DNA from: Pseudomonadota bacterium
GTDB lineage: Bacteria; Desulfobacterota; JAPLJL01
Direction of reading: 5' to 3'
Length of the DNA: 38,189 bases
NCBI GenBank assembly: GCA_026388655.1
Contig: JAPLJI010000065.1
Location: forward strand, 1-38,189
Shown: in pieces, positions 12,760 through 31,313 of the stretch
Position numbering within the stretch: the first letter of the stretch is position 1
Layout of the letters: each line of letters starts with the position of its first letter
The notes under the pieces: model-generated
What the model was told of the DNA's origin: nothing
What the model saw: only the letters and a program-made list of their open reading frames with translations
Database searches by the model: none
Position numbers and translations under genes: made by a program

Positions 12760-13554
12760 ATGGATATTAATGAAGCTTTTGCAATTTTGGGATTACCGTC
12801 AACCGCATCTTTAGAAGAAATTACATTAGAAGAAATTATAAATGCTTTCCAAATTGCTTTGTTAGAAACACTTCCAAAAGATATAACTAAAAAAGAAATT
12901 CAAGAGGCATTTGAAGAAATAATTAATGAAAGTATTCCACTTATTAATATATCAGGAAAAGAGAAAGATATAGATCTTGAAAAAATATTCAAAATTAAAG
13001 AAGCATTCATTAAGTTACAATTTTATAGATATCTTAAGAAAACTGAAATTGCTAAAGAATTAAAAGAAGAAGATAAGTCAAAAAAAGAAAATATAAAATA
13101 TATTTATGAATTTGATTATAAAGAAATTTGCAGAGATTTAAAATTAGGAATCAAAAGATACTTTTATTTAGATAAAGGAGATATTGATGATATTTACCAA
13201 AATTCTAGAAAAAGATATTTAAAGGCTACTATCGCTTACAATTTTATTCGTAAAATACCAAGAGATCATTGGACCAACTGGATAAGCATAGAAAAAAAAG
13301 ATATAAAAAAATGGAAAAGAGCCTGCAAAACTTTAGGGATTCCCTATAACGGACAAGGATTCGAATATGCATATACTAATGCTAAAGAAAGTTTCAGGAA
13401 ATCTATTAGAGCCTACGGAACTCTTAAAAATGTTTTTCAAAAAGAATATCACTATCATATTAAAAAAGCTCGGTTTCAAGCTATTTTATCAATAATAGGT
13501 GTAACAGTTGCTTCTATGCTATTATTTTTCATTTTCAAATATTTTGACCAATAA
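12760..13554 (+). CDS. Unknown tail-anchored protein with a degenerate J-domain-like start
   Basis: 264 residues, very AT-rich and dominated by AAA, ATA and GAA codons, unlike the GC-rich neighbours; horizontal origin is likely. I do not recognise the family. The first 20 residues (INEAFAILGLPSTASLEEI) resemble the opening helix and turn of a J domain, and KIFKIKEAFIKLQFYRYLKK near 73 resembles its later helix, but the HPD motif needed to activate DnaK is absent. The middle is charged and helical. A single hydrophobic segment at about 243-261 (SIIGVTVASMLLFFIFKYF) sits at the extreme C-terminus, which suggests insertion by a tail anchor with the bulk in the cytoplasm. No clear ribosome site. 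Function unknown. Confidence 0.65.
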   Translation: MDINEAFAILGLPSTASLEEITLEEIINAFQIALLETLPKDITKKEIQEAFEEIINESIPLINISGKEKDIDLEKIFKIKEAFIKLQFYRYLKKTEIAKELKEEDKSKKENIKYIYEFDYKEICRDLKLGIKRYFYLDKGDIDDIYQNSRKRYLKATIAYNFIRKIPRDHWTNWISIEKKDIKKWKRACKTLGIPYNGQGFEYAYTNAKESFRKSIRAYGTLKNVFQKEYHYHIKKARFQAILSIIGVTVASMLLFFIFKYFDQ

Positions 13555-13609
13555 TTATGTAAAAAAATGGCTCTTCACCATTAACTGTGGTACTAACTAC
13601 CCTAAACCT

Positions 13610-13825
13610 AAATGTAAATTCTGGGGTCAGATAACATTAAAAACGGCGATCTCCTAAGACTCTGATAAAACCAGAGGTAGCCAAACAGAAAGGAGGCGCC
13701 GCATGATGCACGTAGGATTAGATTTTCATAAAAAGTACTCATTTGCAATCTCCGTTGATGAAAACGAACAAAATAGCAAGGAAAGCCGCATCGACGGAAA
13801 AACTCCCGCCGGGGCTGAAGATTGA
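13610..13825 (+). mobile_element. IS110-family left-end remnant with the first 40 codons of the transposase
   Basis: ATG at 13703 follows AGGAGG and encodes MMHVGLDFHKKYSFAISVDE, the start of the DEDD (RuvC-like) domain of IS110-family recombinases, with the first catalytic Asp in GLDFHKK. The frame continues 20 more codons and stops at 13823-13825, so about 90% of the transposase is missing. The leader 13610-13702 includes the small hairpin CTCTG-ATAAAAC-CAGAG. In IS110-group elements the left non-coding end holds the bridge RNA; whether this leader retains any is unknown. The next gene starts inside the fragment. Confidence 0.7.
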
Positions 13826-14684
13826 ATTTCCGAAGGGGCTGGTAGGGAATAAGTCTACGATGTATGATGCTTTCCTTGAATGCGCTGCCAAGCAAGGAGA
13901 TTTTAAAGATTATGCGATAGAGCTTATCCGGCTTCTCCTTCAAGATTTAAAGGAAACATCGGTATGGTTTGATAATTTGACGGAATTGTGGCGATACGAA
14001 TATGGAGTAACATATGATCGATTACCTGAAGAAACCTTCATTTCCGGTACCAATGTTTACTTCCCTGTGGATGAACTCTATGTATCGTTGAAAATTGCTG
14101 ATAAAAGGTTGAAGCGAGATCAATTATTAAAATTCCTTGAAAGGTTATCTAACAGGGAAAAACACTATGATGTTATATTCGAAATGAGACCTATTAAAAA
14201 CGTCAAGTCAAATCTCCAAATAAATTATGAGGTCAGTGGATTGGGGATAGGAAATACGAATTGTGATTGGCAAGTCAAAAAGAAGGTCATTAATATTGTG
14301 TTTGATGTAAAAAATCGCACAAAGAGCCTCATTGAACATATGAAGCAAATTATTCCAGGTTTGAATAGAGGCGTAGCCAATATTTTACCTTTACCTCCAA
14401 ATCCTGCGGATTTATTCAAAAACGTCGAAAACAAGCTGAAGGAAAAGTGCTTTTTAAGACAATTACAAGGGGTGTGGATTCATACAGATATAAAGGAAAG
14501 CGAAGATGAATTAAATCTTTTTTTCCAAAATAAATTAAACCGTAAAAAAGTACACTTCGCAATTCTGTCAGATTGGGAGGACGATGCATTTATCTTGGTA
14601 CGGAACATGCTGATAAAAAGCATACTAAAGAGAACCTTCTGTTTAACCGAATCCAAGCGCTTTGTCACACGGGAATATGTATAA
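13758..14684 (+). CDS. Unknown protein in accessory island (possible gene-cassette ORF)
   Basis: 308 residues from the ATG at 13758, which lies inside the IS110 remnant in another frame. The true start may be further in, for example ATG 13860 (MYDAFLECAAKQ). AT-rich, soluble, no membrane segment, and no family recognised. Visible blocks are YDAFLECAAKQGDFKDYAIE, FDVKNRTKSLIEHMKQIIPG and HFAILSDWEDDAFILVRNML near the end. No ribosome site was found before 13758, so the IS insertion may have removed the original start region. The stop lies 16 bases before an attC-like site at 14701, the arrangement expected of an integron cassette. The function is unknown. Confidence 0.6.
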   Translation: MKTNKIARKAASTEKLPPGLKIEFPKGLVGNKSTMYDAFLECAAKQGDFKDYAIELIRLLLQDLKETSVWFDNLTELWRYEYGVTYDRLPEETFISGTNVYFPVDELYVSLKIADKRLKRDQLLKFLERLSNREKHYDVIFEMRPIKNVKSNLQINYEVSGLGIGNTNCDWQVKKKVINIVFDVKNRTKSLIEHMKQIIPGLNRGVANILPLPPNPADLFKNVENKLKEKCFLRQLQGVWIHTDIKESEDELNLFFQNKLNRKKVHFAILSDWEDDAFILVRNMLIKSILKRTFCLTESKRFVTREYV

Positions 14685-15650: not shown

Positions 15651-16826
15651 ATGATCTATCCAAGAAAACTGGGATCCCGGCTCATCCGGGAACTGGATTC
15701 ACCCCGGATAACCCTTTTGACCGGGATGCGCCAGACCGGAAAAACCACCTTGATCCGCCATATATTCGGGAAGGTTCAAAATGAAAACAAGCTTTTTCTC
15801 GACCTGGAAAATCCCCTAAACCAAAGTATTTTTGAGGAAAAAAACTTCGATAACATTCTCTCCAATCTCCGGGAACTCGGGATTGATCCGGAAAAGAAAA
15901 TATTTCTCTTCCTGGATGAGATTCAGCTCGCGCCCGCGATCACGCGGGCCGTCAAATACCTTTACGATCATTACCGGGTCAAATTCTTCCTGACCGGGTC
16001 AAGCAGTTATTATTTGAAAAATCTTTTTTCCGAGTCACTCTCCGGGAGGAAGATCATTTATGAACTTTTCCCGCTGGATTTCGAGGAATTTCTGATTTTT
16101 AAGGGGCAAGAGAAGAAATTTTCTCCCACCATCGAGAAAAAGGCCAAGGCCAAAAACCGGATCGCGTTTGAGAAACAAAATAAATATTATGATGAATACC
16201 TGAAATCGGGCGGATTCCCAGGGGTGGTTTTAGAGAAAAAGAATAAGCGATCCGTTTTGGAGGATATTTTCAGGTCTTTTTTCGAGAAGGACGTAAGAAC
16301 CCTTGCCGATTTTAAGGGCATAAGGGAGCTGCGGGATTTAATCATCTTGCTCGCCAATCGCATCGGATCAAAACTGGACGTGAGCAAGCTGGCGCGGGAG
16401 ATCGGGATATCCCGCGAAACGGTTTATTCGTATCTGGGTTTCCTGGAGAAAACTTATTTTATTTCGTTGATTTCCCCGTTTTCCCGGAGTCTTAACGGCG
16501 AGGTCAGGGGTGCGAAGAAAATTTATTTCTGCGATACCGGTCTGGTGAATTTGCTGGGAAAGACCGCCGAGGGGAATATTTTTGAAAACGCGGTATTCTT
16601 GAATTTGAGAGATCACGGGAAAATTAATTTCTACGAAAAATATAAGGGACCGGAAATAGATTTTATCTTGGACGGGAAGGCGGCCCTGGAAGCGAAAATT
16701 CATGGCGATTCCACCGATCTGAAAAAGTTGAAAAGAACCGCGACCGGTTTAAATCTGAAAAATTATTACCTGATCACCAAGAATTATTTCGATCACCCCC
16801 GGGCCATCCCGGCGGTGGATTTGTGA
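15651..16826 (+). CDS. AAA ATPase of the DUF4143 family (ATPase, winged helix, nuclease-like domain)
   Basis: 391 residues. Walker A is TGMRQTGKTTLIRH at 24-37, Walker B FLFLDEIQLAP near 85, and the sensor region FFLTGSSSYYLKNLFSESLS near 112. A winged-helix-like part lies near 240-275 (DVSKLAREIGISRETVYSYL). The C-terminal domain has GPEIDFILDG followed by ALEAKIHGD near 343, the E...ExK pattern of PD-(D/E)XK nuclease folds. Such proteins are widespread and often mobile, and their cellular role is not settled. Base composition is lower in GC than the thiolases. The ATG lies only seven bases after the proposed -10 box with no ribosome site, so the mRNA may be leaderless. Confidence 0.85.
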   Translation: MIYPRKLGSRLIRELDSPRITLLTGMRQTGKTTLIRHIFGKVQNENKLFLDLENPLNQSIFEEKNFDNILSNLRELGIDPEKKIFLFLDEIQLAPAITRAVKYLYDHYRVKFFLTGSSSYYLKNLFSESLSGRKIIYELFPLDFEEFLIFKGQEKKFSPTIEKKAKAKNRIAFEKQNKYYDEYLKSGGFPGVVLEKKNKRSVLEDIFRSFFEKDVRTLADFKGIRELRDLIILLANRIGSKLDVSKLAREIGISRETVYSYLGFLEKTYFISLISPFSRSLNGEVRGAKKIYFCDTGLVNLLGKTAEGNIFENAVFLNLRDHGKINFYEKYKGPEIDFILDGKAALEAKIHGDSTDLKKLKRTATGLNLKNYYLITKNYFDHPRAIPAVDL

Positions 16827-19909: not shown

Positions 19910-22276
19910 ATGAAAACCATTGCCAGATTTCCGATGATCGTGGGTTTGCTTATTGTTACATTGGTCACCTGCCTCTGCGCCGCGGAAAAGGAAATTGATG
20001 TCTCGCCACTCCCCGGTCCAGGCAATCTGGCCGAGGCTTTTCAAAAGCATTACCAGCCGGTCCCGGAAAACTTCGTCATGAACATGCCTGAATATTCCCT
20101 TCCCCTTAATCCGGTGAAGATAAGCAATTATTCGTCGGTAGCGGGCCAATATCTGACCAATCCGGAGGATAAAGATTTACTCGGGAAGAATGGGTTCGTG
20201 ATAGTCAGGGGCGCATACATTGATGATATCGCTGCCGCCTACAAGAATATCCGCAGGCAGAACACCCCGATTTTTGTTACGGCCGATACCCCGCTGCACC
20301 TGTTTCACATCCAATTCGATGAGACCTTGAAGGAGATCGAGGAAACTAATTTTTATCCGGGGATCCTGGAAGTATCCAAGGTCCTGCTCAAGGCTTCCGA
20401 AGAAGATTATCGTGCTTTCAAGGGTGACTTAAAGGAAGCGGCCAAGCGAAACGTGGCCTATTTTTCAGTGGCCCTGAAACAGTTCGATCCGAAATTCTCC
20501 CCCCCTTCCTATGTCAAGGAATGGGTTAACTGGGAATGCGAACAAATTGAAGGACACGCGGGGGTGCCGGAATACGAAACCGCCCGGGCAAAAGCCCTGT
20601 TCCGGATTCCCGAGGATTACAGTCAATATGTCCCGCGCGGCCATTATACCCGGAGCGATACCCTGAAACGGTACTTTCTGGGGATGATGTGGTATGGGCG
20701 AATGGCTTTTCTGATGAAGGGGCACGAGAAAAATTTCGGGCCCATCTCTCCTCCCGCCGAAGCCTTGACCGACCGGCAAACCGCCCGGATTCAGACCCTC
20801 CAGGCGGCCCTGATCACGGCGAGAAGCGGGGAGCTTAAACTTCCCGACGGCCGGAGGGTTACGGAGGTTTGGGACCGGATTTACGCGGTGACCGCTTTCT
20901 ATGCCGGTTTTGCGGATGACCTGACAATTTACGATTACCGCCAAGCCCTGCAGGCGGTTTGGGGGAACAAATTCCCGGCCCGGGAATTGAACAAAGAAGA
21001 CAAACTCACCCGCTTCCTTTTGGAACTGGCCAAAGCGAGGCCTCCCGCGATTTTTTCGGGAACCGGCGGGGCCGGGATAGATCCGGGAGGGGTAGATGGG
21101 CACAAGCTCACCTCGGTCAAGGAGCTAGACGGGATTCTCGATTCCACCATGGGTTTCAGGTTCATGGGACAGCGTTATATTCCCGATTCCTATATCCTGG
21201 GCCAGCTGGTTTCCCCCGGCGCGGGGAGCATCCCTCGAAGGATTTCCGAGAGGTTCACGGTTGTCCATATCCCCGATGAACGAATCCAGCCGGATCTGGC
21301 TTATGCGATCAGGGGTTTTCCCCGGGGCCTGGATGTCTTCAGCGTTCTCGGGAGCGTCCGGGCGGAACAGATAATTCACGCGGATAAAGATGATGAGTAT
21401 CCCAAGTACGGCGAGCAGCTGCAGAAATTGCGGCAGGAGTTCGGAAAACTCACGCCCGGGGATTGGAACCGCAATTTATACTGGTCGTGGCTGTATTCAC
21501 TGAAAAGTTTGACCGGGATCAGGGGCAAAGGATATCAGACTTTTCAGCAGGGGGATGTCTGGTTGGACCGTCAGCTAAACTCCGCCCTGGCTTCCTGGGC
21601 GGCGCTCCGGCACGATACGATTCTTTACGCCAAGCAAAGTTACACCCCGCATTTCGTCGGGACCACTTCGGTCCAGCCGACTCCTGCGCCCCCGCCTCCG
21701 CCCAAGGGATTGGTGGAGCCGCTTCCGGAGTTTTACGCCCGGATTCTTTCGACCGCGAAAATGGCCTATTCCGGCTTGAAAGAGCTGGGGGTTTTAAATG
21801 ACAACTCGGAGTCCAGGCTTTTATCCTTGATCCAAACCCTGGAGCGTTTATACCAGATCTGCAAAAACCAGGCGGCCAATAAGCCCCTGGCCCCGGAAGA
21901 TAACCGATTCCTGGGTGGTTTTCCGGATGCCCTGAAGGCGGCCATCGGCAATGTAGATGACCGGGGATTGAAAACCACGATTATCAGTGATGTGCATACG
22001 GATCTCAATACCGAGCAATGTTTGGAAGAAGCTTCGGGTTATCTCGATTACATCGTGGTTGCCTACCAGCGGGCGGAGGGAGATATCATTCTCCTGGTGG
22101 GGCCGATGCTGTCTTACTACGAATTTAAACAACCGATAAAGAACAGACTGACGGATGAGAAATGGCGGGAACTCCTGGCCCAGGGCAAAGCCCCAGAGCG
22201 GCCCGGTTGGGTCAAGAGTTTCCTGGGTAAATCAACAGCGGCAGGTAACCCCCTGGATCAAATAGGGGAAGAATAG
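19910..22276 (+). CDS. Secreted DUF3160-family protein
   Basis: 788 residues with an N-terminal signal: basic MKTIAR, then hydrophobic FPMIVGLLIVTLVTCLCAAE. Cleavage after Ala-Ala is likely; LVTC is a poor lipobox, so lipoprotein status is doubtful. The mature part matches the family by SVAGQYLTNPEDKDLLGKNG, FVTADTPLHLFHIQFDETLK near 120 and PDSYILGQLV near 424, and its length is typical. These large periplasmic or extracellular proteins have no established function. A proline-rich linker (PTPAPPPPPKGLVEPLPEF) lies near residue 590 before the C-terminal part. GC-rich like the core genome. It stands alone between two toxin-antitoxin-like pairs. Confidence 0.85.
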   Translation: MKTIARFPMIVGLLIVTLVTCLCAAEKEIDVSPLPGPGNLAEAFQKHYQPVPENFVMNMPEYSLPLNPVKISNYSSVAGQYLTNPEDKDLLGKNGFVIVRGAYIDDIAAAYKNIRRQNTPIFVTADTPLHLFHIQFDETLKEIEETNFYPGILEVSKVLLKASEEDYRAFKGDLKEAAKRNVAYFSVALKQFDPKFSPPSYVKEWVNWECEQIEGHAGVPEYETARAKALFRIPEDYSQYVPRGHYTRSDTLKRYFLGMMWYGRMAFLMKGHEKNFGPISPPAEALTDRQTARIQTLQAALITARSGELKLPDGRRVTEVWDRIYAVTAFYAGFADDLTIYDYRQALQAVWGNKFPARELNKEDKLTRFLLELAKARPPAIFSGTGGAGIDPGGVDGHKLTSVKELDGILDSTMGFRFMGQRYIPDSYILGQLVSPGAGSIPRRISERFTVVHIPDERIQPDLAYAIRGFPRGLDVFSVLGSVRAEQIIHADKDDEYPKYGEQLQKLRQEFGKLTPGDWNRNLYWSWLYSLKSLTGIRGKGYQTFQQGDVWLDRQLNSALASWAALRHDTILYAKQSYTPHFVGTTSVQPTPAPPPPPKGLVEPLPEFYARILSTAKMAYSGLKELGVLNDNSESRLLSLIQTLERLYQICKNQAANKPLAPEDNRFLGGFPDALKAAIGNVDDRGLKTTIISDVHTDLNTEQCLEEASGYLDYIVVAYQRAEGDIILLVGPMLSYYEFKQPIKNRLTDEKWRELLAQGKAPERPGWVKSFLGKSTAAGNPLDQIGEE

Positions 22277-28585: not shown

Positions 28586-28949
28586 AAATTTCCCCCTCAC
28601 CCTACTTCGCTGAAGCTCCGAAGGGCAGGCCTCGATTCTCTCCCCCCCGGGGAGAGCCAGCGAAGAGTCTGGCTTTCCCGGCTTCTCCGACGGAAGTGAG
28701 ATTCTTCACCCCCGCCACAGGGGGGTTCAGAATGACAAAATAATGGTTTTGCAACGGTCTCAGAATATTTAACCCGAAAAATTCAAATAGTATTCCCAAA
28801 CATTATTTAGTCGTCCCGACGTAACGTTGGGGATAAGAAAATATCTCTACCGACAGGCTTCATAAATGAGGCAACCACTAAAGGCCTTTAAAATGGACCG
28901 TTTGACAGCCTCTCAAAGTCAGACCCCTTATTTTTAGGAGCCTAAATAA
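28586..28949. repeat. Gap with dispersed repeat units before the repeat-protein gene
   Basis: No gene. An inverted GTCATTCTGAAC-type unit spans about 28697-28736, and GGTTTTGCAACGGTCTCA lies at 28745-28762. The end is AT-rich and includes TTAGGAG as ribosome site for the next gene. Confidence 0.65.
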
Positions 28950-31130
28950 ATGGGAGCAATAACAAGCATAAAAGAAAATAATACTCAAATAAGAATCTCT
29001 CGAATTTTTATCGTCAAATCAATTAAAAATCTGCCAAGGAAGATAGAACTAAGAGACTCGACTAAATCATCAGCAGCGCAAAAATTAGGTATAAAAATAG
29101 ATCAATTAAAAGAACTAGGAATTTTTGAAAATTTTATTGATTTGCAGAAATTGGAAGTAGCTTTAAATAAAAATATGTCACTTGAAATTAAATTGCGTAA
29201 AGGAGAAAAGAGAACGAAAGATAATGTTGTTTCCGCCATAGTTGGAAGATTAGGCAAAGAAGAAATTGTTTTTAGAAAAAAATATGGCTTAAATATTTTG
29301 AATAGAATTCATCTAATTTTAGCATCTTATAAAGCACTTGGTCTTTATAATATTTTGGTTTCTGACATATCACAATTACCTTTTGCAACATTAGCTTTAA
29401 TAAAATTTATGGTAAGAATGACCACGGTTTTATTCTCTGATATTTTTTCTCGGCCTATGTTCATAGCAGATCTAGTTCAAGAATTGTATCCAGACAAGGT
29501 CCCATTACATAGCAAATTTGTAGCAGGAATAATTAAAACTCAATATTTTGACGTTTTTTCTCAAGGGAGATATTCAGCAAAAGTAGCTAAAGCGTTATAT
29601 TCTAACATTATTTCTCAAGGCAGCTTTGTTGGGAAGGCAACTAAATCTCTATATTTTGATACCGCATCTCATGTAAAATTTATGATAGGGGCAACCAGAG
29701 AATTATTCTCAGATGATATTTTTACTAATCCTGACAATATTCATTCTCAAGAAATGTTTATTGGCGAATTCATTAAATCACTATATTCTAATAATGTATC
29801 TTCTCAGCTAACATTTGTGACGGAGATTGCTAGAGTGCTATATCCTAGAGAAATTACTTCACAAAGTATATTTGTAGCCCATATAGTAAAAGGTATTAGC
29901 TTTAACGAAGTTACTTTTTATAACAAATTTAAAGAGAAATTTATAGTAGAATCAGCAAAAAAGCTCTGTCCCGATATCGCTTCTCAGGTGAAATTTTTAT
30001 TAGAAGCGAGCGGAGAAATACATTTTAACAATATTCAAATTAATTTTATAACAGAATCAGTAAAAATACTTTATTCTGATATGTCTTCGAGAATAAAAAT
30101 TATGGAAAAAGTAGTTAAGGAGTTATATCCAAATGACCTGTTTTCGAAAGTAAAATTTCTTGAAAAAGCAATAAAATATTTATATTCTGATATCCCCTCA
30201 CAAGGTAGATTTATAGGGGAAATGGCTAGAACTATGTATTCTGATAGATCCTCTGTTTTGGAATTCGCGCTCAAAATGATTAGAGAATCGTATTTCAGTA
30301 TTCCGGTTGAACTGATAGTTGAAATATCAAAAACATTGTCTCCCGATTTGCTTTCTCAAGTGAAAATTATTGTTGAGATAACTCAACATTTATATCCTGA
30401 TGACATTCATTCACAAGAAAAGATCTTAATTGAAACAACAATGAAGTATTTTTCTAATGATATATATTTTTTTGTTACAGAGGCATCAAAGGCAATATAT
30501 TCAGATGTTTCTTCTCAAGGAGGACTTGTCGCAAAGATTGCCGAAGCCTTATCATCTGATGTCTCATCTCAAATAAAATTTATAGAGAAAATAACCAAAG
30601 AACTTATTCCAAACGATATTTATTCTCAGGGAAAATATATAGGGGATATAGCCAAAAGACTAAATTCTGATTTTGCTCCTTCTTTATTCAGAATTAGATT
30701 TATCGTTGAATCAACCAAAACATTGTATTCTGACTCTTCTTCTCAAGCAAAATTTTTAGGGGGGATAATAGGAACAATGTCCGGTGATGTCTCTTCCCAA
30801 GGAAGGATAGTTGGAGAGGTGACAAAAATATTATATTCCGATCAACCTTCACAAAAAAAATTCATAAGAGAAATTTTGATGATTTTATGTATTGATATTC
30901 TTTCTCAAATAAAATTAATTGGGGAGGCAGCGAAGGTAATATGCTATGATATTTACTCATCATTGATATTTATAATTGAGGTTGGCGGTTTTATGCCAAA
31001 AAGCATTGAAAAAAATGCAGATTATTTAAATCAAATTGCGGAAGTTCTTGAAATCGAACCGGAAGAAGTTTTTGAGTTATATAATCAGATTACGCATTCA
31101 GGTGGAACTTTCCATCCATTCCGGTCATAA
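28950..31130 (+). CDS. Unknown protein with about 28 degenerate 18-residue repeats
   Basis: 726 residues, very AT-rich, with TTAGGAG before the ATG. Residues 1-152 form a non-repeated basic, helical part (SSAAQKLGIKIDQLKELGIF, then KYGLNILNRIHLILASYKAL). From 153 to about 690 the protein is a string of units that begin with F or I and follow F-I-x-E-x-x-K-x-L-Y-S-D-x-x-S-Q-x-K. Starts by count: 153, 171, 190, 208, 226, 244, 270, 289, 308, 331, 349, 366, 384, 403, 421, 439, 456, 473, 492, 508, 526, 544, 563, 584, 602, 620, 638, 656, 674. The tail (residues 690-726) has NQIAEVLEIEPEEVFELYNQ. No signal peptide or clear membrane span. The units have diverged widely, so this is an old array, not a fresh expansion. 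Each unit probably forms one short helix plus a turn, giving a solenoid. No known family recognised; horizontal origin likely. Confidence 0.8.
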   Translation: MGAITSIKENNTQIRISRIFIVKSIKNLPRKIELRDSTKSSAAQKLGIKIDQLKELGIFENFIDLQKLEVALNKNMSLEIKLRKGEKRTKDNVVSAIVGRLGKEEIVFRKKYGLNILNRIHLILASYKALGLYNILVSDISQLPFATLALIKFMVRMTTVLFSDIFSRPMFIADLVQELYPDKVPLHSKFVAGIIKTQYFDVFSQGRYSAKVAKALYSNIISQGSFVGKATKSLYFDTASHVKFMIGATRELFSDDIFTNPDNIHSQEMFIGEFIKSLYSNNVSSQLTFVTEIARVLYPREITSQSIFVAHIVKGISFNEVTFYNKFKEKFIVESAKKLCPDIASQVKFLLEASGEIHFNNIQINFITESVKILYSDMSSRIKIMEKVVKELYPNDLFSKVKFLEKAIKYLYSDIPSQGRFIGEMARTMYSDRSSVLEFALKMIRESYFSIPVELIVEISKTLSPDLLSQVKIIVEITQHLYPDDIHSQEKILIETTMKYFSNDIYFFVTEASKAIYSDVSSQGGLVAKIAEALSSDVSSQIKFIEKITKELIPNDIYSQGKYIGDIAKRLNSDFAPSLFRIRFIVESTKTLYSDSSSQAKFLGGIIGTMSGDVSSQGRIVGEVTKILYSDQPSQKKFIREILMILCIDILSQIKLIGEAAKVICYDIYSSLIFIIEVGGFMPKSIEKNADYLNQIAEVLEIEPEEVFELYNQITHSGGTFHPFRS

Positions 31131-31313
31131 CTTTCAAGCGAATTAATGGAAATATTACAGGAATTTCGCCAAGTTGAATTGTTTCCTGTTCCTGATAAAG
31201 CCTCACCGGAAAATTCCCCGTGATTCCTTGACATCAGGCTTTTAATGATTAGCTTTAAACCATGATGCGGATTTGCCTATATTATTATGGTCTAAAGAAA
31301 GGAGAATGAGATC

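Follow-up and report, generated by a model that had tools for sequence, protein, structure and literature searches.

A putatively acquired orphan gene encoding 28 degenerate 18-residue repeats that are predicted to fold as a helical solenoid

The repeat gene and its insertion site

The window analysed here is a stretch of 38,189 nucleotides (contig JAPLJI010000065.1 of assembly GCA_026388655.1, lineage Desulfobacterota). On its forward strand, the ORF list and the codon composition delimit an AT-rich reading frame of 726 codons at 28950..31130 (GC3 0.22), encoding an orphan repeat protein. Direct reading of the sequence revealed a ribosome-binding-like AGGAG at 28936..28940, 9 bases 5' of the ATG. 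The N-terminal region (residues 1-150, from 28950 to 29399) carries a net charge of +13; unit scoring found no repeat unit in it (best score p = 0.81 against shuffles) and no fold was assigned to it, its pLDDT being about 22-38 in the full-length model. It is followed by the array of 28 units of about 18 residues (residues 151-671, 29400..30962), each predicted to form a single helix and together delimited by autocorrelation, an iterative profile and AlphaFold2 models. The C-terminal tail (residues 672-726, 30963..31127) is devoid of units by the same scoring, and its residues 691-726 are acidic by charge count (net −6).

In the congener G002, the genes for aldehyde ferredoxin oxidoreductase (a Pfam AFOR match) and dnaK lie next to each other with a 281-base spacer and without the ORF. 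Compared to this arrangement, the window contains extra DNA at approximately 28586..31155, made up of the ORF and dispersed intergenic repeats; the right edge is approximate, the alignment with G002 resuming on the dnaK-proximal side at about 31155. The GC3 of 0.22 in the repeat ORF compares with 0.76-0.83 in four neighbour genes. Judged from the sequence, the empty G002 site and the GC3 contrast identify the ORF as a genuine insertion and a horizontally acquired gene, which bears out the original prediction that this very AT-rich gene was probably acquired. In the second congener, G001, a fragment whose translation resembles the start of a group II intron reverse transcriptase lies upstream of dnaK (L004:3444-3651). 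The spacer between the two genes thus seems to accept insertions, with the intron-like fragment in one genome and the repeat gene in the other.

A foreign gene that is decaying or unexpressed and does nothing in its present host would likewise be of foreign composition, missing from both congeners and without relatives. However, all 726 codons are open, with no frameshift or stop and with the repeat pattern intact, and the AGGAG site stands 9 bases before the ATG. We consider decay very unlikely.

The dispersed repeats sit within 365 bases 5' of the ORF. One of them, at 28652-28772 of the window, is an intergenic repeat of about 100 bases that occurs with 70-86% identity in dozens of places in the genome (many contigs of G000) and looks REP- or MITE-like. 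Another dispersed intergenic element (...GAGAAAATATCTTTACCGACGG-GCCTCATAAATGAGGCAAC...) is found at 28815-28905 of the window as well as at L110:1670-1760 and L111:2085-2205; matches to parts of it occur at 40 or more genomic positions, and no Rfam match was found for it. A riboswitch upstream of the ORF was considered and rejected, Rfam giving no match near its gathering score. A likely selenocysteine tRNA is found at L111:3355-3448 (Rfam RF01852, 46.3 bits, just below the 47-bit gathering score). Elsewhere in the window, two more AT-rich ORFs (264 and 313 aa, GC about 0.33-0.37) lie amid GC-rich genes at 12760-14684; they have no Pfam or PADLOC match and are possibly another acquired stretch. 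An AAA_14/DUF4143 ATPase at 15651-16826 showed strong matches to the PADLOC candidate PDC-S01 (E 7e-67), and a 788-aa protein at 19910-22276 belongs to DUF3160 (E 1e-178).

The repeat array, its age and its relatives

BLOSUM autocorrelation of residues 141-695 gave a similarity peak at lag 18 (z 10.4), followed by lag 19 (z 5.7) and weaker peaks at 36/37 and 71/72. For residues 151-690 the lag-18 value was 0.144, whereas the highest of 20,000 shuffles reached −0.456. An iterative position-specific profile placed 27 units within residues 151-671, the first starting at 151 and the last at 654. One further degenerate unit (437) was found in the 34-residue gap at 419-453, bringing the total to 28. 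The ORF is thus as originally described, with about 28 degenerate units of 18 residues; the starts, claimed to fall nearly always 17-19 residues apart, do so for most units, with exceptions of 16, 16, 21, 23 and 26.

The consensus of the unit by column is [IGV]-K-F-[IV]-x-E-I-x-K-x-L-Y-[SP]-[DN]-x-x-S-Q. Its most constant positions are 14 (D/N, in 26 of the 28 units), 3 (F), 11 (L), 6 (E/K), 13 (S/P, with Pro in 7 units) and 9 (K), and its most variable ones 15, 10 and 1. A hydrophobic residue occupies positions 3, 4, 7, 11 and 12 in 79-100% of units, with the opposite face being polar. The net charge of the whole array is only +2, so that nucleic-acid binding is not specially favoured. No clear membrane helix was found in the protein; the highest 19-residue hydropathy, 1.73, lies within the array.

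The DNA of the units had been thought to have diverged further than the protein pattern. Raw identities run the other way, with a between-unit mean of 49% for DNA and 27% for protein, neither identity exceeding 67% in any pair. The claim is supported, though, by a codon test, in which units sharing a residue use the same codon in 57% of cases, as compared to 52% expected from the codon usage of the gene. Synonymous positions are therefore almost fully scrambled, as expected of an old array, and Tandem Repeats Finder did not detect a DNA repeat in the ORF. On this codon evidence, the duplications took place long ago, and the protein pattern has persisted while the underlying DNA changed.

Pfam, NCBIfam, PHROGs, PADLOC and PDB sequences yielded no match worth following, in keeping with the earlier statement that no named repeat family has this consensus. 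In particular, Pfam searches with the whole protein and five segments did not match TPR, PPR, HEAT, ANK, Sel1 or PUF at E <= 10, and the PADLOC anti-phage defence profiles gave no match at E <= 0.1. No homologue was found by protein search in this genome and in 39 relatives, by protein and profile search in 395 genomes of the phylum, by profile search in 59 relatives, by tblastn in phage and plasmid records, or in about 700 genomes around G395, G399 and G401, the last search being run without a positive control. The sampled genomes amount to about 1,100 in all. Viral contigs and 85,000 species genomes were scanned more coarsely, by exact short peptide patterns or a strict three-unit motif that a diverged relative could escape, and revealed no relative either. 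In the literature, no paper was found describing an 18-residue helical repeat family.

The motif scan, which required three consecutive DxxSQ at exactly 18-residue spacing, matched 18 viral and 66 genomic stretches. Among those listed, most were low-complexity sequences, collagen-like repeats or out-of-frame, and profiles over all of them were unconvincing. One ORF of a 301-kb viral contig (L035, SDSISQDAYLQSEITNLN) has the D-x-x-S-Q spacing of 18 in common with the array, but it had been selected by that very pattern; its profile E of 0.012-0.014 within the selected set was treated as a chance resemblance. Four further weak matches were rejected: 59 residues in a cytochrome-biogenesis region (L018), a chemotaxis-receptor-like ORF (L021), a stop-containing sequence at a GTPase-like gene (L020) and, next to a transporter-like gene, a short ORF (L023). 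Over the named databases and sampled genomes covered, the best reading is that the repeat looks new as a sequence family, while being of a known structural kind.

Predicted structure of the array

The strongest period in the hydrophobicity spectrum, calculated without use of structure prediction, is 3.62 residues, the signature of an alpha-helix. AlphaFold2 was applied to residues 542-690 (8 units), the alignment consisting solely of three segments from elsewhere in the array; an earlier alignment of overlapping segments had paired identical stretches only and was dropped. The resulting model has a mean pLDDT of 85.4 and a pTM of 0.80, values to be read with the origin of the alignment in mind, since it was built from the protein's own repeats, without homologous sequences, and could favour a regular model. 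Helices are seen at model residues 16-30, 37-51, 55-69, 73-87, 91-105, 109-123 and 127-138, with a spacing of about 18. Each modelled unit contributes a 15-residue helix (positions 15-18 plus 1-11) and a 3-residue loop at positions 12-14 (Y, S/P, D/N). A repeated helical fold is hence what structure prediction, proposed as a check on the array, returned. The suggestion that each unit is a helix capped by the SD..SQ turn agrees with the model as to one helix per unit; in the model, however, D14 lies just before the next helix, so that SD..SQ would seem to cap the N-terminus of that helix and not the end of the one before it.

A full-length run without alignment gave a mean pLDDT of 50.6. Residues 371-570 reached block means of 66-87 in this run, with a helix pattern matching that of the segment model, whereas confidence was low for the N-terminal region and for the first half of the array, and the superhelix shape of the whole array is not reliable. 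Independent agreement with the model comes from the nine units longer than 18 residues: in eight of them the extra residues, placed without using the prediction, fit best after position 13 or 14 and so coincide with the predicted loop; in the ninth (306) they fit well nowhere.

The original prediction had further proposed a 36-residue, two-helix step. A paired evolutionary unit would make units two apart more alike than neighbours, and over all unit pairs, the set used for the permutation test, the similarity is 16.9 at even and 16.6 at odd separation (p = 0.33). Within indel-free runs the values are 19.0 and 17.6, and the lag-36 signal is weaker than that at lag 18. The sequence thus gives no support for a 36-residue unit. 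The evolutionary unit looks to be one helix of 18 residues, with a small even/odd difference being possible; this leaves room for antiparallel pairing of the helices in the fold.

With units that are equivalent and lack an odd/even difference, as expected of a single layer, and with the strong amphipathicity at positions 3, 4, 7, 11 and 12, the array might instead coat lipid or membrane surfaces through its amphipathic helices, in the manner of apolipoproteins, perilipins or phasins. Eighteen residues are exactly five helical turns, so that the hydrophobic stripe of a continuous helix would run straight, and helices linked by hinges could rest flat against lipid. A continuous helix is, however, disfavoured by Pro at position 13 (7 units) and D/N at position 14 (26/28), and six units carry a one-residue insertion at their boundary, each of which would turn the stripe by about 100 degrees. 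AlphaFold2, moreover, packs the helices confidently, and the 11- or 22-residue periodicity of apolipoprotein- and perilipin-like coats is absent from the array, which has its period at 18 and no peak at 11 or 22. A lipid coat is therefore judged unlikely, and the protein is probably a helical solenoid, as the models predict.

Structural comparison with VIA-align gave generic alpha-alpha matches overall, at Z about 5-12. The top neighbours of the model are designed helical repeats, namely 6vfi (Z 12.3) and DHR4 (5cwb; Z 12.0, rmsd 4.5 over 141), followed by natural MIF4G/HEAT-like solenoids at Z about 7; as unrelated helical repeats commonly reach Z 12 without kinship, these matches support a class and not a family. 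Neither the PDB nor the viral models yielded a Foldseek match at E <= 0.001. DHR4 and the array model both appear to pack helices joined by short loops, but DHR4 is artificial, with about 10% identity to the array and no evolutionary relation to it.

In the familiar helical solenoids found in nature, the repeating unit comprises two or three helices and is roughly 30-45 residues long. As predicted, the array would resemble TPR, PPR and HEAT alpha-solenoids in stacking tandem helices into an elongated scaffold; these, in contrast, repeat a two-helix hairpin with distinguishable A and B helices, and the array one 18-residue helix with no odd/even difference. A HEAT unit has about 40 residues and a PPR unit 31-36 (PMC11514114). 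That the array belongs to such a family (TPR, PPR, HEAT, Sel1 or similar) and has diverged past profile recognition would fit the predicted alpha-alpha solenoid fold and its best natural neighbours, the MIF4G/HEAT-like solenoids. Against this, Pfam matched no such family at E <= 10, and the units of these families, about 31-40 residues long, contain two different helices, whereas the two helices of a would-be pair in the array are indistinguishable. Such an origin seems improbable to us.

A possible scaffold of single-helix units

Taking these data together, we somewhat favour an acquired orphan gene encoding a soluble alpha-solenoid scaffold. According to this proposal, a single-gene insertion gained horizontally would encode about 28 units, each consisting of one amphipathic helix of about 15 residues and a 3- or 4-residue loop. 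Successive helices would pack antiparallel around a core of F3, I4, I7, L11 and Y12, and D14 would cap the helix that follows. The long scaffold is proposed to bind another macromolecule via the variable surface positions 10, 1 and 5 together with the conserved lysine/glutamate face K2, E6 and K9, and the basic N-terminal region would be a separate module. The K2/E6/K9 face could also be explained by salt bridges within each helix, without a role in binding. Folds of the alpha-solenoid type most often serve as binding scaffolds, and in the present protein there is no clear membrane helix, several surface positions vary and the core is kept. That the protein is made, and that it may act as a binding scaffold, is our inference.

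In the PARCEL proteins, 25-residue amphipathic repeats have been spread by horizontal transfer (PMC2996958). They and the array have in common tandem degenerate amphipathic repeats, with function not known, in horizontally acquired ORFs. The PARCEL unit has, however, 25 residues and many of its ORFs contain membrane-targeting sequences, whereas the array has a period of 18 and no clear membrane segment.

It is only tentatively that we raise a further, rather doubtful possibility, that the array represents a natural alpha-solenoid family in which the evolutionary unit is a single 18-residue helix, all helices are equivalent, the sequence is unrelated to every catalogued repeat family and the gene travels as a lone horizontally transferred gene. 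With a single member, it may or may not prove important. If true, 28 equivalent one-helix units would come close to the simplest natural helical solenoid, which would be useful for asking how solenoids arise by duplication of one helix and as a scaffold for design.
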